A stretch of DNA of 34,177 nt from Ectothiorhodospiraceae bacterium (GTDB taxonomy: Bacteria > Pseudomonadota > Gammaproteobacteria > Nitrococcales > Aquisalimonadaceae): NCBI GenBank assembly GCA_003565775.1, contig PXAT01000077.1, forward strand, positions 1 to 34,177. Reading direction: 5' to 3'. Below the pieces are notes generated by a model. It did no database searches and was not told the origin of the DNA. It was given only the letters and a program-made list of their open reading frames with translations. Position 1 is the stretch's first letter; every line of letters starts with the position of its first letter. Of the stretch, positions 5,069 through 31,413 are shown piece by piece. The translations under genes were made by a program, and so were the position numbers.

Positions 5069-6097
5069 TCAGGTGGGTATCGGCATGAAGTCCGGGCGCT
5101 TGAGTTGCGGCAGCGCCGCCTGCATCACCTGGCCGTTCATGATCTGCTGAATCTTGCTGGCGTAGCGCGGATCCGTGGCATAGCCGGCACGCTGCAGTTC
5201 GTTGGTGAAGGCCACCGGATCATCCGTGACCTCCAGCGCCCGGCTGTACCGCGGGTTCTGCTGGAGGAAGTTCAGGTAATCGCGGAAGCTGTCCTCGAGC
5301 GAGTCATAGGCCCGGAACTCGGCCATTTCCCGTCCCGCGATGCCATCCCGATACTCCACGGTGGAGACGCGCACCCGTTCGCCTTCCCAGGTGGAGTGCG
5401 CCTTAATACCGAACAGGTTCTGGGCGCTGCTGCCGTCACCGCGCCGGATGACATGCTGGCCCCAGCCGGTCTCCAGCGCCGCCTGTGCCACCAGCGCCCG
5501 TGGGTCCGCGCCGATTTCCTCGGCGGCCTTGACCGCTGCTGGCCAGACCCCGCGGACAAAGTCCTCCGGGGTCTCCCAGGCATTGCCGCGATCACCGGCC
5601 GAAACCGGATTCGCGCCGATGGTCTTTTCCTTGAACCCGTCCGCTGGCGGCCGGGTGGCCTTGATACTTTCCACACTCGGCAGGCCACCCTTCTCGCGAC
5701 CGCCCTTTTCATGCGGCGCCGCAGGAGCCGCCGCCGGTAGCGGCAGATAATCGGCAATCCCCCGCCCTCCGTCAGGGCCACCACCGGATGGCTGCTGCCC
5801 GGACTGCTCCAGCAACTGGCGTTCGACCATCGCCGCGATGCCGAGCCCCTCGCCCTGACTGACGCTCATGCTCAGCTGCTGGTCATGCAGATCCTGGAAC
5901 TGTTCCATCTCGTTGCTGGAGAAGAGACCGTCACCCGGCGTCGCCTGGCGCATGCTCTTGAGCATGATCTGCACGAACAGCGATTCGAACTGCTTGGCCA
6001 CCTCGCGGATGCCGTCACCCGACGGATCCTGCAGGTCACGCCGCATGCGCGTGGCCTGGGTGCTGTCGAATATATTCGGTTGAGAAACGATGGTCAT
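5069..6097 (-). CDS. flgJ: Flagellar rod assembly protein / peptidoglycan hydrolase FlgJ
   Basis: FlgJ caps the growing rod and opens the peptidoglycan layer in the periplasm. The 342-residue protein has both expected parts: an N-terminal rod-binding domain (about 30-100, with VAKQFESLFVQIMLKSMR and LFSSNEMEQFQDLHDQQL), a low-complexity linker rich in Gly, Pro and Ala (about 100-165), and a C-terminal glucosaminidase domain (about 175-320). The probable catalytic glutamate is E209 in AQAALETGWG; NLFGIK follows at about 227-232. The dual-domain form is typical of beta- and gammaproteobacteria. It lies 11 nt after flgI. Confidence 0.96.
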   Translation of the reverse strand: MTIVSQPNIFDSTQATRMRRDLQDPSGDGIREVAKQFESLFVQIMLKSMRQATPGDGLFSSNEMEQFQDLHDQQLSMSVSQGEGLGIAAMVERQLLEQSGQQPSGGGPDGGRGIADYLPLPAAAPAAPHEKGGREKGGLPSVESIKATRPPADGFKEKTIGANPVSAGDRGNAWETPEDFVRGVWPAAVKAAEEIGADPRALVAQAALETGWGQHVIRRGDGSSAQNLFGIKAHSTWEGERVRVSTVEYRDGIAGREMAEFRAYDSLEDSFRDYLNFLQQNPRYSRALEVTDDPVAFTNELQRAGYATDPRYASKIQQIMNGQVMQAALPQLKRPDFMPIPT

Positions 6098-11456: not shown

Positions 11457-11879
11457 CTATTGCTGTCCAAGCCGCAGGGTCTGCAGCAGCAGATCCCGGG
11501 ACGTGCTCATGACTTCCACGTTGTTCTGGTAGGAGCGCGACGCCGACATCATGTTGACCATCTCCTCCACCGTGTTGACGTTGGAGCGGTACACGTAACC
11601 GTCGGCATCCGCTTCCGGGTGATCCGGCATGTGCAGCGCCTGGGGCGTGGCCTGACTTTCGACGATGCCGCGCATCTGCACGCCACCGTGGCCGCCGCCC
11701 TGGCCGGCCGCGGCCTGTTGCAGTGCCGCGGCGAACACGGGGTTGCGCGCGCGGTAGGCCTCTTCCGGCGAACCGGCCACTGTTTCGGCATTGGCCAGGT
11801 TGCTGGCGGTCATGTTCAGCCGCAGCGACTGCGCGTTCATGGCCGAACCGGCGGTATCAAACACCTTGAACATGGACAT
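11457..11879 (-). CDS. flgC: Flagellar proximal rod protein FlgC
   Basis: FlgC is a proximal rod subunit. The ATG at 11877-11879 is chosen over an upstream in-frame start at 11927 because the family begins M-S-(M)-F with the rod helix (FDTAGSAMNAQSLRLNMTASNLANAET), because GGAGAG lies just upstream, and because it starts 4 nt after the flgB stop. The product is 140 residues, the family norm. The C-terminal helix (NVNTVEEMVNMMSASRSYQNNVEVMSTSRDLLLQTLRL) is intact; a glycine- and histidine-rich loop (AAAGQGGGHGG) lies near 70-80. Confidence 0.96.
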   Translation of the reverse strand: MSMFKVFDTAGSAMNAQSLRLNMTASNLANAETVAGSPEEAYRARNPVFAAALQQAAAGQGGGHGGVQMRGIVESQATPQALHMPDHPEADADGYVYRSNVNTVEEMVNMMSASRSYQNNVEVMSTSRDLLLQTLRLGQQ

Positions 11880-11883
11880 GGGC

Positions 11884-12294
11884 TTACTCTCCGCGAATGG
11901 CGCCGATGAGACCGGTGATCCGGTCACCGAGAAAATTGAGACTGGCCTGGTAGTTCACCGCGTTCTCGGCGAACTTGGCCTGCTCGACCTGGGTCTCCAC
12001 GGTGTTGCCGTCCAGCGCCGGGTTGAATGGCACGCGATACTGCATGTTCATCGATGAACCACCGGCGGCTCCGCCGACCGGCAGGTGCGCGGCATTGGTC
12101 CGTTGCAGCGCCAGCGAACCGCCACTGCCGCCACCGGACGCCTGGGCCAGCGCCGCCTTGAAATCGAAATCGCGTGCCTTGTAGTTCGGGGTGTCGGCAT
12201 TTGCCAGGTTCTGGGACAGCACCTGATGCCGCTCGGAGCGCAACTTGAGTGCTGCCGCCGAAACGCCGAATGCCTTGTCGATGGAAAGAGTCAT
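11884..12294 (-). CDS. flgB: Flagellar proximal rod protein FlgB
   Basis: FlgB is a proximal rod subunit and the first gene of the flg operon. The 136-residue protein has the motif LRSERHQVLSQNLANADTPNYKARDFDF near the N-terminus and a C-terminal helix (VETQVEQAKFAENAVNYQASLNFLGDRI). A sigma-54 type promoter lies 46 nt upstream of the ATG (12340-12355). All genes from here to flgL (1812) are codirectional with short gaps, so one long transcript is likely. Confidence 0.96.
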   Translation of the reverse strand: MTLSIDKAFGVSAAALKLRSERHQVLSQNLANADTPNYKARDFDFKAALAQASGGGSGGSLALQRTNAAHLPVGGAAGGSSMNMQYRVPFNPALDGNTVETQVEQAKFAENAVNYQASLNFLGDRITGLIGAIRGE

Positions 12295-12339
12295 GTTGCG
12301 CTCCGCCGATCCAGTCCCGATTGACTGTGGCGAAAGCTT

Positions 12340-12355
12340 TGCGAAGAGCGTGCCA
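12340..12355 (-). promoter_or_regulatory. Sigma-54 (RpoN) promoter of flgB operon
   Basis: Read on the minus strand the sequence is TGGCACGCTCTTCGCA, one mismatch from the sigma-54 consensus TGGCACG-N4-TTGCW, with the invariant GG and GC spaced 10 nt. The distance to the flgB ATG leaves a leader of about 33 nt. Sigma-54 control of flgB is the known arrangement in Vibrio and Pseudomonas, where an activator of the FlrC/FleR type is needed; that activator is not in this window. Confidence 0.8.
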
Positions 12356-12396
12356 GAACGCGAAACCCGGCAGGAGACAGGATCTTTTTCTTTTCT

Positions 12397-12417
12397 GATT
12401 CATTGCGTTAACGAATC
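12397..12417. promoter_or_regulatory. Possible activator site upstream of flgB
   Basis: GATTC (12397-12401) and GAATC (12413-12417) form a short dyad in an AT-rich stretch about 70-85 bp upstream of the predicted flgB start site, where a sigma-54 activator usually binds. It lies directly next to the -35 of the plus-strand sigma-28 promoter. The assignment is inference from position and symmetry only. Confidence 0.22.
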
Positions 12418-12419
12418 GC

Positions 12420-12446
12420 TAAAGTGCTGATCCTGACTGCCGATAA
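12420..12446 (+). promoter_or_regulatory. Perfect sigma-28 (FliA) promoter, antisense to cheR
   Basis: TAAA (12420-12423), 15 nt, GCCGATAA (12439-12446) matches the sigma-28 consensus TAAA-N15-GCCGATAA without mismatch. It is on the plus strand, between minus-strand flgB and minus-strand cheR, so no annotated gene lies in its direction. Transcription would start near 12453 and run antisense into the 3' end of cheR at 12524. It is a better match than the sigma-28-like sites at cheV and flgM. Confidence 0.65.
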
Positions 12447-12465
12447 CCCGACCAAGCGCAACTCA

Positions 12466-12504
12466 TGCCGGAAAACCGGCAACCCCGGCGGCAAGCGCTT
12501 GCCG
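12466..12504. terminator. Two hairpins between cheR and flgB promoter
   Basis: TGCCGG-AAAA-CCGGCA (12466-12481) and the perfect palindrome CGGCAAGCGCTTGCCG (12489-12504) follow each other. They lie 20-58 nt past the cheR stop and could end or stabilise the cheVR transcript; on the plus strand they would fold at the 5' end of the transcript from 12420. Neither strand has a clear T-run. Confidence 0.4.
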
Positions 12505-12523
12505 GAATGACGCCGCGTCGTCC

Positions 12524-13357
12524 TCAGACGGTCGACTGCTGCCGGCGTCGATACATGACACCGCTGTCGCCACGCACCATTTCCAGATCATCCATGTGCC
12601 GGCTGAGGGATTCGGAGGCACCGACGATCAGGTAACCCCCGGGATTCAGTTGCCGACACATGCGGCGAAGAATGTCTTCCCGCGTCCTGGGCGAGAAGTA
12701 GATCAGGACATTACGGCAGAAGATCATGTCGAAGCGTCCCAGCGTGCCGAAAGGCTCCAGCAGGTTCTGTACCTGAGGCCGCACCCGCGCGCGAATCTCG
12801 GGCTTGACCTGCCAGCCGTCGCCCTGCCGCTGAAAAAACCGTTGCAGGCGATCCGGCGACAACCCCCGCCGGATCGCCGACTCGGGATAGACCGCATGAC
12901 GAGTCATCTCGACCATGGACGGCGCCAGGTCGGTGGCGATGATCTCCGCCTCCAGACTCAGGCCGCGCGTTCGCGACTCGTGCAGGGCCATGCTGATGGA
13001 ATAGGGTTCCTGACCCGAAGAACAGGCCGCCGACCAGATACGGATGCGCCGGCCAACGGTATCGGCGAGTGCGGGAAAGACGTGCTTCTGCAGGTTCTCG
13101 AACGGATAGACGTCACGAAACCAGCTGGTTTCGTTGGTGGTCATCGCCTCGATGACGCGCCCCCGCAGCACCCGTTCGGACGGCCGCTGCAGCCGCTGCA
13201 CCAGCATGCCGAGATCGGTCACCTCTTCAGCGGCCATCAACGGCCCCAGACGACTGGTCACCAGATACTGTTTGTTGTCGCCCAGCAGAATGCCGCAGGA
13301 ATCCTCCAGCAAGCGGCGAAAGGCCTGGAAATGCTCGGGCGCGATGGTCTTGTTCAA
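12524..13357 (-). CDS. cheR: Chemotaxis protein methyltransferase CheR
   Basis: CheR adds methyl groups from S-adenosylmethionine to glutamates of chemoreceptors. The 277-residue product has an N-terminal helical domain (FQAFRRLLEDSCGILLGDNKQYLV), the receptor-methylation signature EAMTTNETSWFRD, the SAM-binding loop IWSAACSSGQEPYS (about 107-120) and NVLIYFSPRTREDIL. I prefer the TTG at 13355-13357, since the family motif begins 8 residues later, as in Pseudomonas CheR. An in-frame ATG at 13438 overlaps the cheV stop as ATGA and would add 27 Arg/Pro-rich residues; this cannot be excluded. A perfect sigma-28 promoter points antisense into its 3' end. Confidence 0.93.
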   Translation of the reverse strand: MNKTIAPEHFQAFRRLLEDSCGILLGDNKQYLVTSRLGPLMAAEEVTDLGMLVQRLQRPSERVLRGRVIEAMTTNETSWFRDVYPFENLQKHVFPALADTVGRRIRIWSAACSSGQEPYSISMALHESRTRGLSLEAEIIATDLAPSMVEMTRHAVYPESAIRRGLSPDRLQRFFQRQGDGWQVKPEIRARVRPQVQNLLEPFGTLGRFDMIFCRNVLIYFSPRTREDILRRMCRQLNPGGYLIVGASESLSRHMDDLEMVRGDSGVMYRRRQQSTV

Positions 13358-13434
13358 GATCCGCTCTCTTTGATCATGACGCGGTCCGCGCGGCGGGCGC
13401 CGGATGGCAGCGGCATGAAACCGCACCCCGACCG

Positions 13435-14364
13435 TCATCCGGAAGCAAGGTCAAGCCGCTCCAGCACCTTCTCCGCCAGTTCGTCCGGCGCGAACTTCGC
13501 CAGAAAACCGTCGGCGCCGACACGGTCCACCATGCCCTCATTGAACACGCCGCTCAGTGATGTGTGCAGCAATACCGTCAACGATTTCAGTTTCTCCGCC
13601 TCGCGGATGCGCGCAGTCAGCGTGTAACCGTCCATGCGCGGCATCTCGATATCGGAAATCACCATCAGCAGGCTGTCAAAAACATGGCTGTCCTCGGCCT
13701 CACTCCACTCCACCAGTTTCGCCAGCGCCTCTTCGCCGTTCTGCGCCAGCAACACCTGAAACCCCATGCGGGCCAGCACGCCCTGGAGCTGACGCCGCGC
13801 GACCACCGAATCGTCCACCACCAGAATGGCCCGACCCGCCGCCCGGTCGCGAACGGACTGGTCGGCATCCTCGCCCTGGTCCATATCCAGCGCGTTGACT
13901 TCCGCCAGCACCTTTTCCACATCCAGCACCTGAACCAGACGATCATCCACCCGCGTCACGCCTGTCAGGTAGGCGCTGCCGGAGGCGCTGCTCGGCGGCG
14001 GCATGATGTCCTGCCAGTTCAGGTTGACGATACGGTCCACGGACGGCACCTGAAATGCCTGCACCGTGCGGTTGTACTCGGTGACGATGATCAGGCTCGG
14101 CTGATCCGCCGGTAACGGCATCGCGCCGGTGGCCTGCGCCAGATCCAGAATCGGAATGGTATTCCCACGAATCTTCGCAATGCCGCGTACTGCCGGATGA
14201 GCATGCGGCAGTCGGGCCAGCTTCGGCGTCGGCATCACTTCGCAGACCTTGAAGACGTTGATGCCGAAAAGCTGCTCGCCGGCCAGGCGGAACAGCAGTA
14301 GCTCGAGCCGATTCTGACCGGCCAGATTGGTGCGTTGATCGACCGTTTCGAGAATGCTGTTCAT
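13435..14364 (-). CDS. cheV: Chemotaxis coupling/response-regulator protein CheV
   Basis: CheV joins chemoreceptors to CheA through a CheW domain and carries a phospho-receiver domain used in adaptation. The 309 residues show CheW (about 20-155, ELLLFRLAGEQLFGINVFKVCEV and IRGNTIPILDLA) followed by REC (about 178-305) with acidic pair D184/D185, phospho-acceptor D238 in SDIEMPRMDGY and lysine K290. All key receiver residues are present. It overlaps the longer cheR frame by 4 nt and lies behind a sigma-28-like promoter at 14449-14475. CheV-CheR before flgB is a known arrangement in Pseudomonas and Vibrio. Confidence 0.95.
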   Translation of the reverse strand: MNSILETVDQRTNLAGQNRLELLLFRLAGEQLFGINVFKVCEVMPTPKLARLPHAHPAVRGIAKIRGNTIPILDLAQATGAMPLPADQPSLIIVTEYNRTVQAFQVPSVDRIVNLNWQDIMPPPSSASGSAYLTGVTRVDDRLVQVLDVEKVLAEVNALDMDQGEDADQSVRDRAAGRAILVVDDSVVARRQLQGVLARMGFQVLLAQNGEEALAKLVEWSEAEDSHVFDSLLMVISDIEMPRMDGYTLTARIREAEKLKSLTVLLHTSLSGVFNEGMVDRVGADGFLAKFAPDELAEKVLERLDLASG

Positions 14365-14448
14365 GGTGTCCTTCAGCCTCTGCCAGACCTGATGCTCGCG
14401 GCAACGCTACCCGCGACATGACAATCGCTGTCATTGAACTACTGAATG

Positions 14449-14475
14449 GTATCGGCAGGCCGGCCCACGACTTGA
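14449..14475 (-). promoter_or_regulatory. Sigma-28 (FliA) promoter of cheV-cheR
   Basis: On the minus strand TCAA (14472-14475), 15 nt, GCCGATAC (14449-14456): the -10 is 7 of 8 and the spacing exact. The predicted start lies about 75 nt before the cheV ATG. Late-class control of cheV by FliA fits its role in chemotaxis. Confidence 0.6.
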
Positions 14476-14526
14476 GGACGCGCACGGACATGGTGCGGAG
14501 AAACAAACGCGCCGGAAGACCGGTTC

Positions 14527-14542
14527 TGGCACCCGTCTTGCT
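14527..14542 (+). promoter_or_regulatory. Sigma-54 (RpoN) promoter of flgA
   Basis: TGGCACCCGTCTTGCT matches TGGCACG-N4-TTGCW with one mismatch and correct GG-N10-GC spacing. It is about 220 nt upstream of flgA, divergent from the sigma-28 site of cheV, 52 nt away. The long leader contains inverted repeats around 14561-14630 (GCCGGTTCC and CCGAACCGGC). Confidence 0.7.
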
Positions 14543-14759
14543 TCCCCTGCAGAAGCACTGGCCGGTTCCGGTCCCCGGCAGCGTTGCGCCGCCGGGCAGG
14601 CAGAACCACTGCCGAACCGGCACCGGGCCTTGCCGGATGAGCAAAACCGGTCTCCGGCGCAGACGCGAGAACAGGCCAGTTTTCCGTAATCAACGGCAAT
14701 CGTTGCCGGAGGGAATTGCCTTGCACAGTCAAGCAGACCGTCAGAAACAGGTCACCGGC
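14543..14759 (+). other. Long leader of flgA, no separate gene
   Basis: The intergenic stretch 14365-14759 holds the two divergent promoters listed and otherwise no gene. In this leader are imperfect GC-rich dyads (near 14561-14630) and a hairpin CGGCAA-TCG-TTGCCG (14694-14708). Directly after it, GGAGG (14708-14712) stands 8 nt before an in-frame TTG at 14721, an alternative flgA start. Confidence 0.45.
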
Positions 14760-15479
14760 ATGCGATGCTGCGCAGCATTCGTCAAAATGTCGACGTATCC
14801 GGTCCTGCTGGCACTGCTGGCCATCTCCTCCGTTGCAAACGCCGGCGGCATCCAGTCGCTGGACGATATTCGCGAGGCCATCGACCGCTACGCCATGGAA
14901 CATCTGGTGCAGAACGCGGAGCGCGACACGGTCACCATCGGACGCCTCGATCCGCGGCTGCGGTTGCAGGAATGCGATCAGGACATCGAGGCGTTCCGGA
15001 ATCCGGGCAATCGGCGCGGCGGCCGCAGCACGGTCGGCGTGCGCTGCCCGGGTAGTCAACCATGGACGATCTATGTCTCGGTTCAGGTTCAGAGCCATGC
15101 CAGCGCGCTGGCGTTGACCCGGGCCATGGGCCGGGGCGAACGCATCCAGGCCGGCGATCTGCGCGAGACCGAAATCAATGTCGCGGATCTGCCCCACGGG
15201 CACTACAGTGACCCGGAACGGCTGGTCGGCATGCAACTGCGGCGCTCGGTGCGCGCGGGCGAGGTTCTGAGTCCTTTGCTGGTGGAGGCTCCGGCGCTGG
15301 TCAACCGCGGCGAGACGGTGATTGTCATCGCGGCGGCCGGCGGCACCGAGGTCAGCATGCAGGGTGAAGCACTGGACAGCGGCGCACTGGGAGACCGGAT
15401 CCGGGTCCGCAACAGCGTGTCGAAACGGGTGATCGAAGGTGAGATCATCGAACGAGGCCGTATCCGGGTCATGCTTTGA
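14760..15479 (+). CDS. flgA: Flagellar P-ring assembly chaperone FlgA
   Basis: FlgA is a periplasmic chaperone for P-ring (FlgI) assembly. From the ATG at 14760 the product has 239 residues: a Sec signal peptide (hydrophobic run YPVLLALLAISSVANA), an N-terminal domain (about 30-120), and a SAF/ChapFlgA domain with RAMGRGERIQAGDLRETEI, MQLRRSVRAGEVL, RGETVIVIAAAGGTEVSMQGEAL and the C-terminal GDRIRVRNSVSKRVIEGEI. The start is uncertain: TTG at 14721 has the stronger ribosome site (GGAGG), ATG at 14787 gives the shortest signal peptide. It heads flgA-flgM-flgN, opposite to the flgB operon, and probably is driven by the sigma-54 site at 14527. Confidence 0.93.
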   Translation: MRCCAAFVKMSTYPVLLALLAISSVANAGGIQSLDDIREAIDRYAMEHLVQNAERDTVTIGRLDPRLRLQECDQDIEAFRNPGNRRGGRSTVGVRCPGSQPWTIYVSVQVQSHASALALTRAMGRGERIQAGDLRETEINVADLPHGHYSDPERLVGMQLRRSVRAGEVLSPLLVEAPALVNRGETVIVIAAAGGTEVSMQGEALDSGALGDRIRVRNSVSKRVIEGEIIERGRIRVML

Positions 15480-15510
15480 TTCTTTCGAAAGAAAATTTGC
15501 AGATGACCGC

Positions 15511-15537
15511 TAAAGAAACCTGTGATGCGGTCGACAT
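15511..15537 (+). promoter_or_regulatory. Possible sigma-28 promoter of flgM
   Basis: TAAA (15511-15514), 15 nt, GTCGACAT (15530-15537). The -35 and spacing are ideal and 5 of 8 bases of the -10 agree. FliA-driven flgM transcription is known in several gammaproteobacteria. The moderate match makes this tentative. Confidence 0.4.
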
Positions 15538-15570
15538 TCCCTTTAAGGAATGCACAAGGGGCAGATTGTT

Positions 15571-15888
15571 ATGACCAATCCGATCAATAACGGCAGCAAA
15601 CCGGCGCTGGATCGCAGCATCGGCGAACCCCAGCGCACCCGCGCCGATGGCGCGGGTGCCGATGCTGCCGGAAACCGTCAGGCCGAGAGCCGCCCGCAGG
15701 GCAGCGGTGACAGCGCCAGTCTGTCGCCGCGACTGCAGGCCGTACTCGATGGCATCCGGCAGACTCCGGATGTGGATCAGGCTCGGGTCGACGCTCTTCG
15801 CCAGCAGATTGCCGATGGCGACTATCCGCTGGATGCGGACAAGATCGCCAGTCGCATGATGGATCTGGAGCGCCTGCTTGAGCGGTGA
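15571..15888 (+). CDS. flgM: Anti-sigma-28 factor FlgM
   Basis: FlgM binds FliA and blocks late flagellar genes until the hook is finished and FlgM is exported. The ATG at 15571 (MTNPINNGSKPALD) is chosen; an ATG at 15550 in the same frame has its AGGA directly abutting the start and would add seven residues. The 105-residue protein has the usual unstructured Gly/Ser/Ala/Arg-rich first half and a C-terminal sigma-binding part (SPRLQAVLDGIRQTPDVDQARVDALRQQIADGDYPLDADKIASRMMDLERLL). Its last codons overlap the flgN start by 11 nt. Confidence 0.93.
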   Translation: MTNPINNGSKPALDRSIGEPQRTRADGAGADAAGNRQAESRPQGSGDSASLSPRLQAVLDGIRQTPDVDQARVDALRQQIADGDYPLDADKIASRMMDLERLLER

Positions 15889-18464: not shown

Positions 18465-20012
18465 GTGAGCCAATCTTTATGGACACGCGGCGTTCGGGCA
18501 TGCCAGCAAACGGACAGCCAACAGACAGCCACCATGGATCAGCAACCTCTTCGAATGGGCGATTACGTCCGCCAACTGGGTGATATCGCTCTGCCCATTC
18601 AGGCCGGCACCCTGGAGACCCTGAAACGGATTGATGTCGAGGGGCTGACCAATACCGAACTTGCCACCATCATGTATCGCGATCCGGCGCTGTGCATCAG
18701 CCTGCTGGCGCGAGCCGCGTCCCTGCAGAAGCGTCCCGAGAATCGCATCGCCACGGTTGATCAGGCGATTCTTCTGCTGGGCACCCGCGGTAGCCTCCGC
18801 TGGGCGCTGGAGCAGCCGGTCGCGGAACAGCAACTCGGCCAGCACGATCTGCGTCTGTACATGGATTTCGTCGCCGACGCCATTCACGCCTCGTCGCAGG
18901 CCACGGCCTGGGCAACGTGGCGGCATGATGTTCTGCCGGCGGAGATTCGAACAGCCGGGCTGATTCGCCTGATCGGGCCCCTCGGCCTTCTGACCAGGCA
19001 CCCGACGCTGTTACACCAGGTGCTGGAGGCCGAGGACGAGCATCCTTATAGCCGGCATTGCGCGGCGTACGCTGTGCTCGGCTTCACATTGAGCGAACTG
19101 AGTGCCGGTCTGATTCAACACCTCAAGCTACCCATCGGGGCGCTGGAGCAACTGCTGCCGGACCGCATCGAAGGGCGGCGCATGCTGGGGCTCAGTCTGG
19201 CAGCCTCGCTGACGGATCTGAGCATCCTCGGCCCCCATCATCCGGATGTGAAGACCGTGATCGAGGCGATCGCCCGCTACAACGGCATGCACATCGCCCT
19301 GATGCTGCAGGACATCGGTATTCATGCCCGGGAAGCCGCCGCCCACCCCTGCGCCGGACACGTTCCGTGGCGCTGGCTGTGCCAGCCGCCTTCAGCCCTG
19401 GTGGACAATGCGCCCCGGCAACTGCCCGGAAAGCTCTGTCTGGCGCCACGCAAGGACATGGCGGAGCGCCTGATGGCGCTCTGCCGAAAGCCGCCGAATG
19501 AGCGCGCCGAGCAGGAACTGGCCCTGAAACACTCCCACACCGAACCGGTCGACAGCACGATCATGCTGGCCCTGAAGGCGCTGCATCACGGTCTCGGTCT
19601 GGCCCGGGTCATCTACTTCCGGCCGGATGCCGCGGACGAGAGCATCCGGCCCTACATCACCCTGGGTTGCAATGGCAATCCATTGCTGCCGGAGCTGGCC
19701 CTGACGGTTGTTTCCGGCTCGCGCCTGCGGTCGTATCTTCGCGATGGGCGCTGGATGAAACTGGATACCGCACACCTGCATGACCTGCTCGGCGTGATTC
19801 ACCACACCTCACACCGTCTTTTCTTCTGCGATCACGCCCTGATCGCACCGATCCGCAGTCCGGACGGGCTCCAGGGCATGCTGTATGCCGATCAGGGCAG
19901 CAACGACTGCCTGCTGCACGAAACGGCGGTGCAGGGATTTCCGGCGGTCTGCGATGCACTGGAGAGCGGCTTCAGCCACCTGCATCTGCCGGAAACACTG
20001 TCACTGAATTGA
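18465..20012 (+). CDS. HDOD domain protein with C-terminal GAF-like region
   Basis: HDOD proteins resemble HD phosphohydrolases but lack the metal-binding His-Asp and serve in signalling, often of motility or virulence. The 515-residue product has an N-terminal HDOD part (about 40-270; LETLKRIDVEGLTNTELATIMYRDPALCISLLARAAS, then VDQAILLLGTRGSLRWAL) and a C-terminal region (about 360-500; MLALKALHHGLGLARVIYF, LIAPIRSPDGLQGMLYAD) that looks like a GAF sensor fold. The start is a GTG at 18465; an in-frame ATG at 18534 is an alternative. It is divergent from motA, which makes a motility role tempting, but no residue evidence shows this. Confidence 0.75.
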   Translation: MSQSLWTRGVRACQQTDSQQTATMDQQPLRMGDYVRQLGDIALPIQAGTLETLKRIDVEGLTNTELATIMYRDPALCISLLARAASLQKRPENRIATVDQAILLLGTRGSLRWALEQPVAEQQLGQHDLRLYMDFVADAIHASSQATAWATWRHDVLPAEIRTAGLIRLIGPLGLLTRHPTLLHQVLEAEDEHPYSRHCAAYAVLGFTLSELSAGLIQHLKLPIGALEQLLPDRIEGRRMLGLSLAASLTDLSILGPHHPDVKTVIEAIARYNGMHIALMLQDIGIHAREAAAHPCAGHVPWRWLCQPPSALVDNAPRQLPGKLCLAPRKDMAERLMALCRKPPNERAEQELALKHSHTEPVDSTIMLALKALHHGLGLARVIYFRPDAADESIRPYITLGCNGNPLLPELALTVVSGSRLRSYLRDGRWMKLDTAHLHDLLGVIHHTSHRLFFCDHALIAPIRSPDGLQGMLYADQGSNDCLLHETAVQGFPAVCDALESGFSHLHLPETLSLN

Positions 20013-20029
20013 CATGATCCCGTCATGTC
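20011..20029. other. Small dyad after the HDOD gene
   Basis: GACATGA and TCATGTC close on a 5-nt loop directly at the HDOD stop codon. There is no T-run. It may be a weak hairpin or an operator for the small gene at 20083. Confidence 0.3.
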
Positions 20030-20082
20030 CCGGCAACCGCACGCGGACATCCTTGCGCTCAACGCTACCCAGGAGACGCATC

Positions 20083-20274
20083 ATGGCCCGCAAATCCCCG
20101 GTTGAACTGCATCGCATCGCGCTGTCCCTGCACGGACGAGGGCATGCCCCCTCGCTGATCGCCGACATGCTCGGACTGCACCCCGGCGCCCTGCGCAACT
20201 GGCTGTCGGAACAGGCCAGTCGGAATGACAGGACAGGCACACCGGTAACGGGTTCATCACGCTCGCGCGCCTGA
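20083..20274 (+). CDS. Small helix-turn-helix-like protein, 63 aa
   Basis: The ATG at 20083 has a good ribosome site (CAGGAGACG). The 63-residue basic protein is mostly one compact helical unit (VELHRIALSLHGRGHAPSLIADMLGLHPGALRNWL) resembling the N-terminal helix-turn-helix of transposases or small regulators, followed by a polar tail rich in Ser, Arg and Thr. I cannot name a family. It lies between the HDOD gene and cydA, on the same strand as both. It may be a small DNA-binding regulator or a remnant; no transposase core domain follows. Confidence 0.55.
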   Translation: MARKSPVELHRIALSLHGRGHAPSLIADMLGLHPGALRNWLSEQASRNDRTGTPVTGSSRSRA

Positions 20275-20333
20275 GCGAATTCGACAACGGATCCGCGCCT
20301 TCCGTCGCAACCCGAACTGCAGCGAACTATCCG

Positions 20334-20361
20334 TGCCCACCGGGCTCTACTGCGATATGAT
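20334..20361 (+). promoter_or_regulatory. Possible promoter of cydA
   Basis: TATGAT (20356-20361) matches the sigma-70 -10 at 5 of 6 positions. The -35 (TGCCCA, 16 nt away) is poor, so an activator would be needed. It lies in the 195-base space between the small HTH gene and cydA, which holds nothing else recognisable. Confidence 0.3.
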
Positions 20362-20469
20362 CGGTCAACCGGTCACAGGCGAAAAACGCTCACTCGGCTC
20401 TTCCTGCCGACGCGCTCCGCCTTTTCCTCCGCTCAAAAGCCCGCCCGGGCCGAACAGAGGTTGCTCGCA

Positions 20470-21861
20470 ATGGAGTTGGATCCGCTTCTCATTTCCCGCA
20501 TCCAGTTCGCGTTCGTCGTCTCTTTCCACATCATTTTCCCGGCTTTCACCATCGGTCTCGCATCGTTCATCGCGGTGCTGGAAGGTCTCTGGTTCAAGAC
20601 CGGCAACCCGGTCTACCTGCGACTCTCGAAAATGTGGATCAAGGTCTTCGCCGTCTCCTTCGGCATGGGCGTGGTCTCCGGCATCGTCATGTCGTTCCAG
20701 TTCGGTACCAACTGGAGCGAACTCTCGTACGCCTCGGCCAACTTCCTCGGGCCAATCCTGAGCTACGAAGTGGTGACCGCGTTCTTCCTTGAAGCAACCT
20801 TCCTCGGGGTGCTGCTGTTCGGCCGTAGCAAGGTCCCCCAGGGCATGCATCTGTTTGCCGCCATCATGGTTGCGGTAGGCACTTTCATATCCTCTTTCTG
20901 GATCCTGTCCGCGAACAGCTGGATGCAGACCCCGGCCGGTATCGAACTGATCAACGGTCGGGTCGAAGTGGTGAGCTGGCTCGAAGCCATCTTCAACCCG
21001 TCATTCCCTTATCGCTTCGCGCACATGGTGCTGGCGGCGTTCCTCACCACCGGCTTCTTCGTCATTGCCGTGAGCGCCTGGTACCTGCTGATCAACAAGT
21101 CGCGCGAATACGCCAAGATCATGTTCTCCATGACCCTGTGGCTGGTTGTCGTGATGGCCCCGCTGCAGGTGCTGGTCGGTGACATGCACGGCCTCGACAC
21201 GCTGGAACACCAGCCGGTCAAGGTGGCGGCAATGGAGGGCAACTGGGAAACCGGTACTCGCGTGCCCCTGCTGTTGTTCGCCATCCCCGACCAGGCTGCG
21301 GAGAGCAACCGGTTCGAGGTCGGTATTCCGGGCCTTGCCAGCTTCATCCTGAAGCATGATCTGGATGGCGAGGTTCCGGGGCTGAAGGACTGGGCGCCGG
21401 AAGATCGACCGCATGTGGCGACCGTGTTCTGGTCGTTCCGCGTGATGGTCGGTATCGGCATGCTGATGGTGCTTGTGGCCGGGCTCAGTCTGGTGCTGCG
21501 CTGGCGCGGCACCCTGTACGAGAATCGCGCCTTCCTGCGGCTGTGTACCTTCATGATGCCGCTGCCCTTTATCGCGGTCCTGGCCGGCTGGATCACGACC
21601 GAGATGGGTCGTCAACCCTGGGTGCTGTACGGCCTCATGCGGACCGAAGACGCGATCACGCCGTCGCTGACGGGAGGTGTGGCGCTGACGTCGCTGATCG
21701 TGTTCATCGTCGTCTATGCCGTCATCTTCGTCGCGGGTGGCTATTACATCAGTCGAATCCTGGTCGGCGGACCGGAAAAGGAAGACACACCGCTGGACGA
21801 GCTTCCGGAGCACAGGCGCCGTCCGTCGCGACCGATGTCGGCGGCTGACAGCCCCCTGTGA
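20470..21861 (+). CDS. cydA: Cytochrome bd-type ubiquinol oxidase subunit I (CydA/CioA)
   Basis: CydA carries the three hemes and the quinol site of the bd oxidase, which reduces oxygen to water in the inner membrane. From the ATG at 20470 it has 463 residues, against about 522 in E. coli, because the long Q-loop insert is absent; this and GWITTEMGRQPWVLYGLMRTEDA are as in cyanide-insensitive (CioA-like) enzymes. Heme ligands are visible: H20 (SFHIIF), H185 (RFAHMV), M379. Acidic residues E100 and E108 of the proton path and K251/E256 of the quinol site are present. Eight to nine membrane helices are seen. It is followed by cydB after 31 nt. A TTG at 20461 is a weaker start. Confidence 0.96.
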   Translation: MELDPLLISRIQFAFVVSFHIIFPAFTIGLASFIAVLEGLWFKTGNPVYLRLSKMWIKVFAVSFGMGVVSGIVMSFQFGTNWSELSYASANFLGPILSYEVVTAFFLEATFLGVLLFGRSKVPQGMHLFAAIMVAVGTFISSFWILSANSWMQTPAGIELINGRVEVVSWLEAIFNPSFPYRFAHMVLAAFLTTGFFVIAVSAWYLLINKSREYAKIMFSMTLWLVVVMAPLQVLVGDMHGLDTLEHQPVKVAAMEGNWETGTRVPLLLFAIPDQAAESNRFEVGIPGLASFILKHDLDGEVPGLKDWAPEDRPHVATVFWSFRVMVGIGMLMVLVAGLSLVLRWRGTLYENRAFLRLCTFMMPLPFIAVLAGWITTEMGRQPWVLYGLMRTEDAITPSLTGGVALTSLIVFIVVYAVIFVAGGYYISRILVGGPEKEDTPLDELPEHRRRPSRPMSAADSPL

Positions 21862-21892
21862 CGATGCCCCTAGCATTCGGAGTGAATTGATC

Positions 21893-22909
21893 ATGGACGG
21901 ACAATTGTTTGACCTGACCCTGATCTGGGCGGCCATTATCGCCTTCGGCGTCTTCATGTACGTGCTGATGGACGGATTCGACCTGGGCGTCGGCATCCTC
22001 TTCCCGTTCGCGCCGAACGAGGAGGCCCGGGACATCATGATGAATACCGTCGCACCGGTCTGGGACGGCAACGAGACCTGGCTGGTGCTCGGCGGGGCCG
22101 GGCTGCTCGGCGCTTTTCCGCTGGTCTACTCGGTCGTACTCCCGGCGGTCTATCTGCCGATTCTGATCATGCTGGCGGGGCTGATCTTCCGCGGCGTGGC
22201 CTTCGAGTTCCGCTTCAAGGCCAAGGATTCCAAGTGGCTGTGGGATATCTCGTTCACCGTCGGCTCCATGGTTGCAACCTTTGCCCAGGGGCTGGTCCTC
22301 GGCAGCTTCATTCAGGGCTTCGAGGTGGAAGGCACCCGTTTCGTCGGCACGCCATTCGACTGGGCCACGCCGTTCGCCCTGATGACCGGCTTCGGCCTGA
22401 TGGCCGGCTATGCGCTGATCGGTGGCTCCTGGGTCATTCTCAAGACCGAAGGTGAAGTCCGCGACTGGGCCTATCGCGTCGCCCCGGTGCTGCTGGGACT
22501 GGTGCTGCTGTTCATCGCCGTCGTCAGCCTGTGGACACCGCTGATGCGCGAAGCCATCGCCGAGCGCTGGTTCTCGACACCGAATCTGTTTTATTTCCTG
22601 CCAGTGCCGGTGGTAACCGGGCTGATCACGCTGCTGATGATCAAGGCGCTCCGCGACCGGGCTGACTATCTGCCGTTCCTCTGCTCGCTCGGCCTGTTTG
22701 CCCTTTGCTATTCCGGCCTTGCCATCAGCCTGTGGCCGAACGTTATCCAGCCCGACATCAGTCTCTGGGATGCCGCCGCATCGCCGGGTTCGCAGCTGTT
22801 CCTGCTGCTCGGCGTGCTGTTCATCATCCCGTTTATCCTGGTCTACACGAGCTGGACCTACTGGGTATTCCGCGGCAAGGTCACCAGAGATTCCGTGGGC
22901 TATCACTGA
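21893..22909 (+). CDS. cydB: Cytochrome bd-type ubiquinol oxidase subunit II (CydB/CioB)
   Basis: CydB is the second membrane subunit, structurally supporting the heme-bearing CydA. The ATG at 21893 has GGAGTGA upstream; the open frame runs further left but there it overlaps cydA. The 338-residue product has eight or nine helices and the family motifs ALMDGFDLGVGILFPF-like (MYVLMDGFDLGVGIL), the NTVAPVWDGNETWLVLGG segment, LPAVYLPILIMLAGLIFRGVAFEFR and the C-terminal PFILVYTSWTYWVFRGKV. No small CydX-like frame follows; in this type one is often absent. A strong hairpin lies after it. Confidence 0.96.
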   Translation: MDGQLFDLTLIWAAIIAFGVFMYVLMDGFDLGVGILFPFAPNEEARDIMMNTVAPVWDGNETWLVLGGAGLLGAFPLVYSVVLPAVYLPILIMLAGLIFRGVAFEFRFKAKDSKWLWDISFTVGSMVATFAQGLVLGSFIQGFEVEGTRFVGTPFDWATPFALMTGFGLMAGYALIGGSWVILKTEGEVRDWAYRVAPVLLGLVLLFIAVVSLWTPLMREAIAERWFSTPNLFYFLPVPVVTGLITLLMIKALRDRADYLPFLCSLGLFALCYSGLAISLWPNVIQPDISLWDAAASPGSQLFLLLGVLFIIPFILVYTSWTYWVFRGKVTRDSVGYH

Positions 22910-22917
22910 ACCGGTCT

Positions 22918-22953
22918 GCGCACTGCGTCGGGGGCTCTCCCGACGCAGTGCGC
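22918..22953 (+). terminator. Strong hairpin between cydB and cydD
   Basis: A perfect 15-bp stem (GCGCACTGCGTCGGG 22918-22932, loop GGCTCT, CCCGACGCAGTGCGC 22939-22953). There is no T-run, so it may terminate weakly or set the ratio of cydAB to cydDC mRNA. It starts 8 nt after the cydB stop. Confidence 0.55.
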
Positions 22954-23048
22954 GGGGCCCTGACTGATTCCCGGTTCTGCATGCGAATGGATCGGGACTT
23001 CCCTGGTCCGCAGCCTGCGACACCACTCCGACCACCCGCTGGACTCTG

Positions 23049-24743
23049 ATGCAGGCACCTCCGCAAAGCGATAGCCGCTGGCTGTTTTCACGGATCACAC
23101 CGACCAGCCGTCGCCTGCTGCTGCTGGCCACCGGTGGCGGTCTGGTTGCAGGCTGGCTGGGCATCCTGCAGGCCGGCCTGATCGCCTGGCTGGTCTACGC
23201 CACGCTGGTCATCGGTGCCGAACCGGCCACTCTCGCGACGGTCTTCGGCCTCTGGTTGCTGAGCATCCCGCTGCGCAGCGCCGGTCTGTCCCTGCGCGAT
23301 CAACTGGCACTGAAAGCCTCCCTGTCCATTCGCGAGCACCTGCGTCGGGACCTGATTCACGACACCCTGGAACTGGGCCCGGTGGGCGTCGCGCATTTCG
23401 GCAGTGCTCGCGCCGGCTCCGTGCTGCTGGATCAGCTTGATGCGCTGGAAGGCTACTTCGCACGCTTCCTGCCCCAGTGCCTCCTGGCTCTGCTACTCCC
23501 GCTGAGCATCATCGTGGTCGCGTTCTGGCTGGACTGGCTGGCCGCCCTGCTGCTGCTGTTCGCCCTGCCCCTGATCCCGCTGTTCATGGCCCTGGTGGGC
23601 ATGGGCGCGGAAAGCATCAACCAACGGCAGTTCCAGGCTCTGGAACGTCTCGGCAGCTTCTTTCTCGATCGTCTGCAGGGCCTGGAGACACTGCGCCAAC
23701 TGGGGCGCGGCGGAGAAACGCGCGAGGCCATGCGCGAGAGCACCGACAACTACCGCCAGCGCACCATGGCCGTGCTCCGGGTCGCCTTTCTGTCTTCGGC
23801 GGTCCTCGAGTTCTTCAGTGCCGTGGCCATCGCCATGGTGGCCATCTATGTCGGCCTCGGCCTGCTCGGATATCTGACCCTGGGACCGGCAGGAGATCTG
23901 ACGCTGTTCAGCGGGCTGTTCGTGCTGCTGCTGGCACCGGACGTGTTCGCACCCCTCCGGGAACTGGCACAGCATTATCACGACCGGGCGGCAGCGCTCG
24001 GCGCCGCCCGCGGCTTGCGCGATCTGCTCGACCAGCCCGCGACGGTCGTGGCGCGCCCGAGCAAGGGCCTCGGTGCGATTCGACAGGCACCGGAAGTCCG
24101 TGTGAATGGCCTGACCGTAACCTATCCGGGCGGCGACGCGCCGGCGATCCGGGATCTGTCGTTCCGGGTGGGCGCCGGGAGCAGCCTGCTGCTGACCGGC
24201 CCCAGCGGCGCCGGCAAGACCAGCGTCCTGCTCGCCCTGCTGGGACTGCTGCAGCCCAGGGAAGGCACCATCCTGCTGGGCGCCCACCGGATTGCAGAGT
24301 ATGCACCCGGCAGCATCGAAAGCGGCAGCGCCTGGCTGGGACAGAACCCTCGCCTGCTCCCCGGCAGCCTGCGCGACAACATCCTGCTGGGCCGCCCGGA
24401 TGCGTCCACGGATGCAGTCACGGACGCGGCTGCGAGAGCCGGTGTATTACGCTTTGCCGACAGCCTCCCCGATGGCCTCGACACCGTCATCGGTGAACGC
24501 AGCGCCGGCATCTCCGGCGGCGAGGCCCAGCGCGTGGCGCTGGCGCGCCTGCTGCTCAAGCAACCCGGCCTCGTGATTCTCGACGAGCCCACGGCGCGTC
24601 TCGATCCGGAAAGCCGCGCCATCATGCTGGCAACGCTGGAGACACTTGCCGGGCAGTGCACGATGATTGTCGCCAGCCACAATCCCGAGCAGTTCGCATG
24701 GATCGACCAGCGACTCGCGCTGGGCGGAGAGCCGGCGGCATGA
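23049..24743 (+). CDS. cydD: ABC exporter subunit CydD (cytochrome bd assembly)
   Basis: CydDC is a heterodimeric ABC exporter that is required for cytochrome bd assembly and is reported to export thiols or to bind heme. CydD has 564 residues: six membrane helices (about 20-300), then an ATPase domain with Walker A GPSGAGKTS near residue 384, signature SGGEAQRVALARLLL near 487 and Walker B LVILDEPTARLD near 508. All ATPase motifs are complete. It starts 139 nt after cydB and its TGA overlaps the ATG of cydC (ATGA), so the two are coupled. Confidence 0.94.
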   Translation: MQAPPQSDSRWLFSRITPTSRRLLLLATGGGLVAGWLGILQAGLIAWLVYATLVIGAEPATLATVFGLWLLSIPLRSAGLSLRDQLALKASLSIREHLRRDLIHDTLELGPVGVAHFGSARAGSVLLDQLDALEGYFARFLPQCLLALLLPLSIIVVAFWLDWLAALLLLFALPLIPLFMALVGMGAESINQRQFQALERLGSFFLDRLQGLETLRQLGRGGETREAMRESTDNYRQRTMAVLRVAFLSSAVLEFFSAVAIAMVAIYVGLGLLGYLTLGPAGDLTLFSGLFVLLLAPDVFAPLRELAQHYHDRAAALGAARGLRDLLDQPATVVARPSKGLGAIRQAPEVRVNGLTVTYPGGDAPAIRDLSFRVGAGSSLLLTGPSGAGKTSVLLALLGLLQPREGTILLGAHRIAEYAPGSIESGSAWLGQNPRLLPGSLRDNILLGRPDASTDAVTDAAARAGVLRFADSLPDGLDTVIGERSAGISGGEAQRVALARLLLKQPGLVILDEPTARLDPESRAIMLATLETLAGQCTMIVASHNPEQFAWIDQRLALGGEPAA

Positions 24744-26416
24744 GCGATCTTTTCTACTTCCTGCGACTGCACGGCAAGCGGTTGCCATGGCTGATGGCGG
24801 GCCTCGGGCTGATGCTGGCCTCGGCACTGGCCGGCATCGGTCTGCTGGCGCTGTCGGGCTGGTTCGTCACTGCAACCGGACTCAGCGGCCTGCTGATGGC
24901 CGCCGGCGTCGCCATCACGCTCGACATCTATCGCCCCGGCGCAGGCATCCGGGCCTTCGCCGTCGGCCGGGCGGTGACCCGTTACGGCGAGCGACTGATC
25001 AATCATGAAGCGGTCCTGCGGACCCTCGCGGACCTCCGGCTCTGGGTGCTGGACAGTCTGCTGCTGCAACCGTCGACGAAGCTGGCGATGTTGCGTGATG
25101 GCGAATTGCTGAACCGCATCACCACCGACGTCAGCGCCCTGGATCAGCTGTTCCTGCGGCTGCTGGCGCCGACCCTGGTGGCCATCCTGGCGCTGCTCGC
25201 GGCCTTCGCCTTCATCGCCTTCTGGACACCACTGCCGGCCTTGCTGGTGGCCGGACTGCTGTTGTCGACCACCCTGCTGTGCATCCTGCTGCTGGTGCGT
25301 TACGGCGCACTGCCCGGGCGGAATCTGGCCCACGGCCAGAGCCGCCTCCGCCAGCAACTGATCGGGCTGCTGGATAACCTGACCGAACTGCGGCTGTTCG
25401 ACCCGGCCCATCGCCAGGCGAATCAGATCCTCGATCTGGGCGCGGAGACCGCACGGCGACGTCTGCAGCTCGGGCAACAGACCACGATTGCCGACTGTCT
25501 GCTGCTGACCGCCTCGCAGCTTGCCGTCTGGCTGATGATGCTGCTGGGCCTCGGACTGTATGGCGCCGGCATCATCAACGGACCGGTGCTGGTGATGCTG
25601 GTGCTGGCGGTTTTCTCGCTGGGCGAGATCCTGAGACCGCTGCCCGTGGCCTGGCAACAGATCGGACGCCTGATCTGGAACGCACAGCGGTTGCGTTCGT
25701 TGCAGGCCGACCCGATACCGCAGCTCGATACAACAGCCGCAACGGCCCAGTGCGATGCGGCCGTGAAACTCGATGGCGTCTGGTTCCGCCACCGCACCGG
25801 TCAGCCCTGGTGCCTGCAGGACGTCTCGCTCCGCATCGAGCCCGGTGAACACATCGGCATCATGGGCCCCAGCGGCAGCGGCAAGAGCACGCTGTTCCAG
25901 TTGCTGCAGGGTGACCTGGCACCCTGCCGGGGCCGACTTCACGCCCCGTTTGGCCCGCGGTCCGGCACGACGGGGCGCGGTGATCCGCCGGGTATCGCCG
26001 TGCTCGGCCAGCGTACCGTGCTGTTCCAGGGGAGCATTGCCGATAACCTGCAACTGGCGGCCCCCGAGGCTGACAGCGAGGCCCTGTGGCAGGTGCTGGA
26101 AGAGGTCGAGCTTGCGGGACTGATCGATAGCATGCCGCGGGGTCTGGACAGCTATCTCGGGCCCGGAGGTCGCGGCCTCTCGGGCGGACAGGCCCGGCGC
26201 CTGGCGATGGCCAGAACGCTGCTCGTGCCTGCCGGACTGTTGCTGCTGGACGAACCCGCCGAGGGACTGGACCGGCAGCAGGGAATGCGGATTCTCGAGC
26301 GTCTGGCCGCAAACCGCCGCGAGCAGACGATTATCGCCATCGCCCATGACCGGGATCGACTGCCGCCGACAGATCGTATACTCGTATTACGTGACGGCTC
26401 CCTGATGGACACCTGA
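24740..26416 (+). CDS. cydC: ABC exporter subunit CydC (cytochrome bd assembly)
   Basis: The 558-residue partner of CydD. The ATG at 24740 overlaps the cydD stop by 4 nt; a longer frame upstream is not used because of this coupling. It has six membrane helices (about 15-300; the GLLALSGWFVTATGLSGLL stretch is typical of CydC), the ATPase motifs Walker A GPSGSGKST near 376, signature LSGGQARRLAMART near 480 and Walker B LLLLDEPAEGLD near 501. It is followed by a phosphatase gene 2 nt after the stop. Confidence 0.94.
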   Translation: MSDLFYFLRLHGKRLPWLMAGLGLMLASALAGIGLLALSGWFVTATGLSGLLMAAGVAITLDIYRPGAGIRAFAVGRAVTRYGERLINHEAVLRTLADLRLWVLDSLLLQPSTKLAMLRDGELLNRITTDVSALDQLFLRLLAPTLVAILALLAAFAFIAFWTPLPALLVAGLLLSTTLLCILLLVRYGALPGRNLAHGQSRLRQQLIGLLDNLTELRLFDPAHRQANQILDLGAETARRRLQLGQQTTIADCLLLTASQLAVWLMMLLGLGLYGAGIINGPVLVMLVLAVFSLGEILRPLPVAWQQIGRLIWNAQRLRSLQADPIPQLDTTAATAQCDAAVKLDGVWFRHRTGQPWCLQDVSLRIEPGEHIGIMGPSGSGKSTLFQLLQGDLAPCRGRLHAPFGPRSGTTGRGDPPGIAVLGQRTVLFQGSIADNLQLAAPEADSEALWQVLEEVELAGLIDSMPRGLDSYLGPGGRGLSGGQARRLAMARTLLVPAGLLLLDEPAEGLDRQQGMRILERLAANRREQTIIAIAHDRDRLPPTDRILVLRDGSLMDT

Positions 26417-26418
26417 AA

Positions 26419-27033
26419 ATGACTGGTAGGATCCTGGTCCTGTTGTGCTTATCCATTGCTCTGGGGGCCGTGAACGCGCCGGTCCTGAGCGCGGACGATG
26501 ACTATCAGTCCCTCTGGGAGGCCCTGACAGGCGGCGGTCATGCCGTGCTGATGCGTCACGCCACGGCCCCGGGTGACGACAACATTTCGCCCGACGATCT
26601 GAGCGACTGCAGCCAGCAGCGGCAGCTGTCCGAGCAGGGCTGGGACGAAGCACGACGCATGGGCGCCCTGTTTCGTCGCAACGGGCTCGAAGATGTCCCG
26701 GTATACACCAGCGAATACTGCCGCTGCCGGCAAACGGCCGAGGCGCTGGCACTGGGCGAGGTAACGCTGCTGCCGGCGCTGAACCGGTTTTTCTACGAGC
26801 GGGAACTGGCCGATGAAAGACTGGCGGCCGTGACGTCGAAACTGCGCGAGCACGCCGACGGTCCGTCCATCATTCTGGTGAGCCACAGCCTGACGATTTA
26901 CAACCTGACCGGCCAACGGATCGATTCCGGGGACATGCTGATCGTGCACCAGCCGAGCTACGGCAAGCTTGAAGTCGTCGGACGCATCAGCGCAGGGATC
27001 GGCAGTCGCTCCTATGGTCCGTCAGCGCCCTGA
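26419..27033 (+). CDS. Periplasmic histidine phosphatase family protein
   Basis: This family transfers phosphate to a catalytic histidine in an RH(A/G) motif. The 204-residue protein has a Sec signal peptide (about 1-25, MTGRILVLLCLSIALGAVNAPVLSA), catalytic R46-H47 in AVLMRHATAPG, LSEQGWDEARRMGALF, VYTSEYCRCRQTAEAL and the second histidine H156 in ILVSHSLTIYNLTG. All motif residues are present, so it is probably an active phosphatase or phosphomutase-like enzyme of the periplasm; the substrate is not predictable. It follows cydC by 2 nt and may be cotranscribed, though no link to bd oxidase is known to me. Confidence 0.87.
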   Translation: MTGRILVLLCLSIALGAVNAPVLSADDDYQSLWEALTGGGHAVLMRHATAPGDDNISPDDLSDCSQQRQLSEQGWDEARRMGALFRRNGLEDVPVYTSEYCRCRQTAEALALGEVTLLPALNRFFYERELADERLAAVTSKLREHADGPSIILVSHSLTIYNLTGQRIDSGDMLIVHQPSYGKLEVVGRISAGIGSRSYGPSAP

Positions 27034-27142
27034 TCATTTGACCCCGATTCCGTGATGCTGCACCCGCTCGACATGACCTCGCGGCCGGAATCGACGACCC
27101 GCCGGTTCCTCGCCGGGCGTGATCTCCCGACAGGCGGAAAGG

Positions 27143-31362: not shown

Positions 31363-31371
31363 AGACAACAT

Positions 31372-31413
31372 CCTTTTGCTGCATCGCAATATATCCGGCG
31401 TTGCGACAAAAGG
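31372..31413 (-). promoter_or_regulatory. mRNA hairpin that may hide the ribosome site of the efflux operon
   Basis: In the minus-strand leader CCTTTTG-TCGCAA pairs with TTGCGA and, past a 5-nt bulge (TGCAG), with CAAAAGG. The loop is 11 nt. CAAAAGG is the presumed Shine-Dalgarno (its last base is at 31372, with the AUG at 31362). Folding would block translation of the adaptor and, through coupling, the pump. Confidence 0.45.

Follow-up and report, generated by a model that had tools for sequence, protein, structure and literature searches.

A family of Gammaproteobacteria carries, between flgB's sigma-54 promoter and a putative enhancer, a sigma-28-type promoter that faces the enhancer

What could a promoter of the late flagellar sigma factor be doing upstream of a rod/hook operon, when it points away from that operon and antisense into a chemotaxis gene? 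The window, the whole stretch of 34,177 nucleotides analysed here, carries such a site (here denoted P28) in the 229 bp gap between cheR and flgB. The sigma-28 (FliA) consensus is TAAA-N15-GCCGATAA, and transcription usually starts about 7 nt past the -10. TAAAGTGCTGATCCTGACTGCCGATAA, at 12420-12446 on the plus strand, agrees with this consensus at 12 of 12 positions, with zero mismatches and a spacer of exactly 15; its -35 TAAA occupies 12420-12423 and its -10 GCCGATAA occupies 12439-12446, and the usual spacing places the predicted start at 12453 (+). The mismatch-free motif that the initial annotation had reported is thus present, and both neighbours are, as it stated, on the minus strand: flgB, the first gene of the rod/hook operon, at 11884-12294 (start at 12294), and cheR at 12524-13438 (stop at 12524; the ORF is taken from its first ATG, and similarity to relatives begins near residue 13-30). 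The gap also holds a predicted sigma-54 promoter of flgB, TGGCACGCTCTTCGCA at 12340-12355 (-), which departs from the consensus TGGCACGN4TTGCW by one mismatch in the -12 part, so that the two promoters share one intergenic region as the annotation had it. A sigma-54-type site was found in 82 of 85 cheR-flgB gaps, among the gaps listed. P28 is directed away from flgB, across the putative enhancer of the flgB operon and toward the 3' end of cheR, which its transcript would enter antisense.

Pfam supports the identity of cheR, cheV, flgB, flgC, flgA, flgM, flgN, motA and motB around the gap. Upstream of cheV (13435-14364, minus strand; CheW and receiver domains) lies a sigma-28-like site at 14449-14475 (-) that matches 10 of 12 positions, and before flgM (15550-15888, plus strand), encoding the anti-sigma-28 factor, lie sites at 15487-15513 or 15511-15537 (+) that match 9 of 12; the earlier statement that P28 fits better than either is correct. 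The flgA ORF as listed (14418-15479) probably begins too early, its FlgA domain starting only at residue 151, and since the sigma-28-like site of cheV falls in the extra part, cheV and flgA may lie several hundred bases apart. Another site of 10/12, upstream of flgK at 5077-5103 (-), lies within the end of flgJ, and some relatives have sites in a similar position. The far part of the window (18465-34177) encodes an HDOD-domain protein, cytochrome bd subunits I and II, two ABC transporter subunits, an AcrB-type pump with a membrane-fusion protein, and a sulphur-transport protein.

The regulators that such a site calls to mind are encoded in the same genome. FliA is recognised by FliA_WhiG at 259.9 bits (cut-off 189.6), its gene sitting behind a frame read by eye as fleN, and FlgM is present. 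Fourteen sigma-54 activators were found, a FleQ-like and a FleR-like protein among them, and three of the fourteen were examined. The FleR-like gene (L196 943-2463, on contig C86 of the same assembly) lies immediately after the FleQ-like gene, without an intervening kinase gene, and the receiver domain of its product scores under the Pfam cut-off (24.2 vs 30.2 bits); judged by its sequence, this activator may be something other than a classical two-component regulator.

Could P28 be a chance match? Across 100 dinucleotide-shuffled versions of the window, TAAA-N15-GCCGATAA occurred on average 0.00 times, and the window's own assembly (3.2 Mb, 96.8% complete) contains one exact match with spacers of 14-16 allowed, against 0 for the reversed-pattern control. 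At up to one mismatch, 68 matches were found in ten family genomes vs 60 for the reversed control, and the sigma-28 pattern alone is therefore unconvincing; this lack of genome-wide enrichment (4 vs 5 in the own genome) speaks for chance, as do isolated high scores elsewhere, such as 11/12 antisense at locus L050 (N16) and 11/12 sense at L094. The latter, from a sister family (G034), is TAAAG-N14-GCCGTTAA near base 390 of 531 in its cheR-flgB gap and points toward flgB. Around the flagellar loci the counts separate from the control: in the window and nine family loci (194 kb) 35 matches reached at least 10/12 (8 reversed) and 20 reached at least 11 (1 reversed). Besides P28, many of these precede flgM, cheV or flgK, or lie beyond flgL. 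The -35 in the family alternates between TAAAG and TCAAG, both at P28 and at other sigma-28-like sites.

The argument against chance is conservation in place. Fourteen genomes of the window's family were covered, and the same ten have both cheR (E <= 1e-60) and flgB, making a small sample of ten usable genomes from four genera; in all ten, flgB follows cheR. The best antisense N15 scores in these ten gaps were 12 (three gaps), 11 (two), 10 (four) and 8 (G012), while the sense strand of the same gaps reached only 6-8. When each gap was shuffled 2000 times, the shuffles reached 10, or the observed score where that was higher, 0-13 times. Of 112 loci, 22 without flgB downstream of cheR and two that repeated the own locus were dropped, and 78 of the gaps that remained came from outside the family; eight of these fell beyond 90-700 bp, and the other 70 were scored with N15 only. 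These gave a single antisense 10 and nothing above it, and two 10s and one 11 on the sense strand. With N14 and N16 also allowed, three further antisense sites of at least 10 appeared outside the family, at L050 (11/12, N16), L037 (10/12, N16) and L065 (10/12, N14). Thus, the motif, whose loss from relatives with conserved flanking genes would have spoken against it, is present at 10-12/12 in nine of ten family gaps, on the same strand, with N15 and between the same elements, and three of the seven exact matches in the ten genomes sit in this one gap. P28 is not chance, as the annotation had argued from the quality of fit, and the in-place conservation carries that conclusion where the pattern does not suffice; a coincidental match is very nearly out of the question. 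On its sequence, P28 is likely a genuine sigma-28-type promoter.

The DNA that P28 faces is rich in CGGCAA/TTGCCG hexamers. A dyad, CGGCAA-N4-TTGCCG, at 12489-12504 is a putative site for a FleR/FlrC-type activator, and a further hexamer of the putative enhancer lies at 12477-12482. The dyad occurs in ten of ten gaps of the window's family; in the longer form GCGGCAAN4TTGCCGC it is exact in eight and has one mismatch in the other two, the own gap included. The two hexamers together occur 38 times in the ten family gaps (3.3 in shuffled sequence), 41 times in 18 outside-family gaps from the search for relatives (4.8) and 115 times in 57 named gaps (11.9), an enrichment of about ten-fold in all three genome sets that extends to genomes without a sigma-28 site. 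Outside the family, TTGCCG forms same-direction repeats with commonest steps of 21, 7 and 14 bp, at distances from the -24 that peak at 57/58, 71/72 and 78-80 bp. Helical turns alone do not account for steps in multiples of 7. The hexamers are most frequent upstream of flgB (2.39 per upstream region), followed by flgF (1.21), flgK (0.77), flgG (0.69), flgD (0.49), flgA (0.41), cheV (0.38) and flgM (0.33); the sigma-54-like site of flgF had no hexamer upstream in 12 of 23 loci, among the loci listed, which speaks against a FleR motif of universal use.

The activator of flgB is FleR in Pseudomonas and FlrC in Vibrio. We infer from these distributions that the hexamer cluster is a putative enhancer of a FleR/FlrC-type activator of flgB. 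The part of one report available to us states that FleR recognises the flgBCDE and flgFGHIJKL promoters (PMC8335546); counting against the link between motif and FleR, the accessible text of another places FlrC sites in V. cholerae typically downstream of the start (PMC6504787). A literature search with the motif string returned no usable description of an FlrC or FleR site. Dyad copies elsewhere in the genomes were considered as further activator targets and set aside: at up to one mismatch they did not exceed the reversed control in several genomes. One exact dyad on the flagellar contig of G011 sits inside a frame read by eye as fliK.

In all nine P28-bearing gaps of the family the order from flgB outward is sigma-54 core, P28, enhancer and cheR. 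The distance from the -10 of P28 to the dyad is 31 bp in three genomes and 42-43 bp in six, two classes one helical turn apart that gain or loss of one hexamer could have produced, and the distance from P28 to the -24 box varies from 53 to 100 bp in the same gaps. P28 seems tied more to the enhancer than to the sigma-54 core, because the gap to the enhancer is fixed and the gap to the -24 is not; shared descent could be the cause of the fixed gap. Overall, the dyad centre lies 120-178 bp from the -24 in this family, with the sigma-28 promoter in between. The exception is G012 (L087), which has no P28 (score 8) and keeps the dyad, and the dyad therefore serves something besides a P28 RNA.

The predicted transcript itself might be the product. 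RNA from 12453 folds into stems at 12466-12481 and 12485-12505, and the 108-nt stretch is mildly more stable than its shuffles (z = -1.94; 7 of 200 equally stable), so that the two hairpins placed by the annotation at 12466-12504 hold as a folding prediction. A role as RNA structure finds less in their favour. Both stems are built of CGGCAA/TTGCCG, hexamers that look like a protein site and are enriched where the promoter is missing; the further hexamer overlaps the first stem, and the dyad forms the core of the second. Conservation of the hairpins in relatives, which the annotation had proposed to check, gave a divided result: in an alignment of the nine P28-bearing family rows (L087 from G012, which lacks P28, excluded) the six core pairs of the dyad arms are invariant, and the covariation score was reached by 138 of 500 shuffles. 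Two outer pairs are changed on both sides (six cells), a result reached by 40 of 500 shuffles. Between the -10 and the enhancer (12447-12476 in the window) lies a CGGAAnTTTGAC-like element that is conserved in part of the family and degenerate in the own genome. It was considered as a dispersed repeat and rejected: CGGAANTTTGACGG has only two exact matches in the ten family genomes, both in the cheR-flgB gap. Of the hints at an RNA function that are left, this element is the strongest.

On these grounds P28 might make a trans-acting sRNA from about 12453, whose conserved 5' part (approximately CGGAAnTTTGAC in several relatives) would pair with flagellar mRNAs while a stem guards its 3' end. 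The partly conserved segment, the confinement of CGGAANTTTGACGG to the gap and the two-sided changes in the outer pairs would fit, and sigma-28-dependent sRNAs are known from E. coli (PMC10578931) and Campylobacter (PMC4626219), as far as the available portions of these reports go. Against it stand the constant core pairs and unremarkable covariation, the departure of the own genome from the conserved 5' element, the lack of a counterpart to that element (by eye) in the second family described below, and the absence of terminator-like sites on the plus strand in 11800-13600 and 13400-15600, which leaves room for a processed 3' end. Rfam at the gathering threshold found only a tRNA in the window and no family at this place. 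We regard such an sRNA as unlikely.

A comparison beyond the family bears on which neighbour P28 might serve. When 369 genomes of the class were scanned for P28 together with the dyad, two had both: the own genome and G219. The G219 site is upstream of flgB with no cheV-cheR in between, and flgA and flgM come next in the direction of P28. A search of the taxonomic order to which G219 belongs yielded 43 matches, spread over 41 of 97 genomes, and the 30 with loci listed were read. In this second family the sigma-54/P28/dyad layout is present in five of seven flgB-bearing genomes, with P28 scores of 10-12, among the matches listed; one of the five dyads has one mismatch, and P28 is absent from the other two genomes. 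In the 23 genomes that were read from the other families of that taxonomic order, no site reaches 10 in the orientation of P28. The gaps between P28 and dyad in the second family are 14, 17, 26, 30 and 30 bp, and the tight spacing of the window's family is therefore not common to both. P28 is also dispensable, because G012 and the two second-family genomes without it keep the hexamers (one dyad with two mismatches). In a quick tree of FlgB and FlgC the window's family and the second family were not neighbours; the former was nested among sister families that lack P28, and the latter formed one clade of six rows, its seventh row (L220) being a long branch elsewhere. Independent origin of the layout in the two families is the simpler reading, with repeated loss as the alternative.

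These results bear on the proposal, made in the initial annotation, that the P28 transcript is an antisense brake, pairing with the 3' part of the cheR mRNA and lowering CheR. In each of the nine P28-bearing family gaps the transcript would indeed head to the 3' end of cheR. In a coarse test on 79 invariant-residue columns, identity at third positions was 0.47 over the final 30 columns of cheR vs 0.48 overall, giving no sign of extra synonymous constraint there, and cheR is unlikely to be the reason for P28 because the second family has the same layout without cheR at that place. The accessible part of a study of E. coli describes many FliA sites inside genes, for example in hypD, most of them without detectable RNA (PMC4183435). 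Together with the missing terminator-like site, this leaves the brake without the footing it was given, and we judge it quite improbable. Another gene ahead of P28 is flgA. In the second family P28 points at it and may simply be one more promoter of flgA; in the five genomes with P28, similarity to flgA begins 330-349 bp from the start of flgB, in the direction of P28. By this account P28 would be a promoter of flgA-flgM, direct in the second family and, in the window's family, either stranded or the source of a very long, excludon-like leader that runs antisense through cheR-cheV into flgA-flgM-flgN, genes that in the window do lie further along the plus strand. About 2 kb of antisense sequence separates P28 from flgA in the window, however, and the sister families in the window's taxonomic order also have cheR before flgB yet lack P28. 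In the second family, moreover, another sigma-28 site of 11-12/12 lies about 1.1 kb further on in seven of seven genomes (just before flgM in G219), and a sigma-54-like TGGCA-TTGCA site precedes flgA by eye. A main role as flgA-flgM promoter has, in our estimate, a small chance of being right. Sigma-28 holoenzyme might also simply park or be titrated at P28, as a decoy or as a site that passively keeps enhancer and promoter from looping together. The position of P28 between these two elements would suit a block, and the E. coli intragenic sites have been proposed, in the part of the report at hand, to alter the pool of available FliA (PMC4183435). A full -35 and -10 at correct spacing, in the same orientation in both families, is more than binding needs, and either role seems a poor prospect.

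What the comparisons establish is the arrangement: a sigma-28-type promoter, recognised by its sequence, sits between the sigma-54 core of flgB and the hexamer cluster and faces the cluster, is conserved in the window's family, and recurs in a second. The reading that we prefer, tentatively and at somewhat under an even chance, is that, after hook completion, sigma-28 polymerase runs across the enhancer and thereby dampens transcription of the rod/hook operon. Upon completion of the hook FlgM would be exported and FliA-polymerase would fire at P28. If a FleR/FlrC-type activator of flgB uses the hexamer cluster as its enhancer, the polymerase would reach it about 25-55 nt from its start and dislodge the activator; late firing would lower rod/hook transcription because the polymerase crosses the enhancer so near its start. 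Transcription from P28 would also oppose read-through from cheV-cheR into flgB, and the bound activator may conversely restrain P28 at an earlier stage. The outcome would be a hand-off from middle to late genes between opposing sigma factors, in which the act of transcription outweighs the RNA. Certainty falls along this chain, from the use of P28 by FliA, through the cluster as a FleR/FlrC-type enhancer, to the lowering of flgB by enhancer crossing. The absence of P28 from nearly all gaps outside the family counts against this reading. The broader proposal of an opposing-sigma switch, in which a sigma-28 promoter between core and enhancer lets hook completion shut the rod/hook operon by transcription, is possible but doubtful; such a switch may have arisen at least twice, beside different genes.

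Several known systems resemble parts of this arrangement. In the excludon, described for flagellar regulation in Listeria, a long antisense RNA over one gene is the mRNA of its divergent neighbour. The opposed flagellar genes and the antisense promoter at P28 are alike, but nothing here indicates that a P28 RNA reaches flgA-flgM. P28 shares with the intragenic FliA promoters of E. coli that it opposes the neighbouring coding strand and that its product is probably untranslated; unlike them, it is intergenic, conserved over four genera and placed inside the control region of another promoter. With the sigma-28-dependent sRNAs, which include MotR, UhpU, FliX and FlgO of E. coli (available part of PMC10578931) and CjNC1/CjNC4 of Campylobacter, whose predicted targets are sigma-54-dependent flagellar genes (available part of PMC4626219), it would have late-flagellar timing in common. 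It differs from them in having no terminator-like site and little RNA-like conservation, and the element downstream of it resembles enhancer DNA. The closest parallel in the operon itself is with the FleSR/FlrBC middle promoters of flgB and flgF in Pseudomonas and Vibrio, which have the same operon, sigma-54 core and activator type; the hexamers here lie upstream of the -24. The dyad centre at its distance of 120-178 bp from the -24, with a sigma-28 promoter between, sets the present arrangement apart from those promoters, as does the fact that we assign the motif to FleR/FlrC ourselves; the upstream position of the hexamers also contrasts with the typically downstream FlrC sites of V. cholerae (PMC6504787, in the part available). 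In the open-licence literature, at the level of titles and the first lines of abstracts, we found no description of a sigma-28 promoter that separates a sigma-54 flagellar promoter from its enhancer, nor of the cheR-flgB sigma-28 antisense arrangement.

In polar flagellates the shutdown of sigma-54-dependent rod/hook transcription after hook completion is usually credited to the kinase of the activator and to FlgM. P28, firing through the putative flgB enhancer, would offer a concrete cis-acting answer to how middle genes are shut down. The CGGCAA-N4-TTGCCG dyad and the TTGCCG repeats provide a candidate enhancer motif for the flgB operon in many Gammaproteobacteria, and the reason for an apparent antisense promoter may here lie in the DNA that its polymerase crosses, not in the gene that it opposes.
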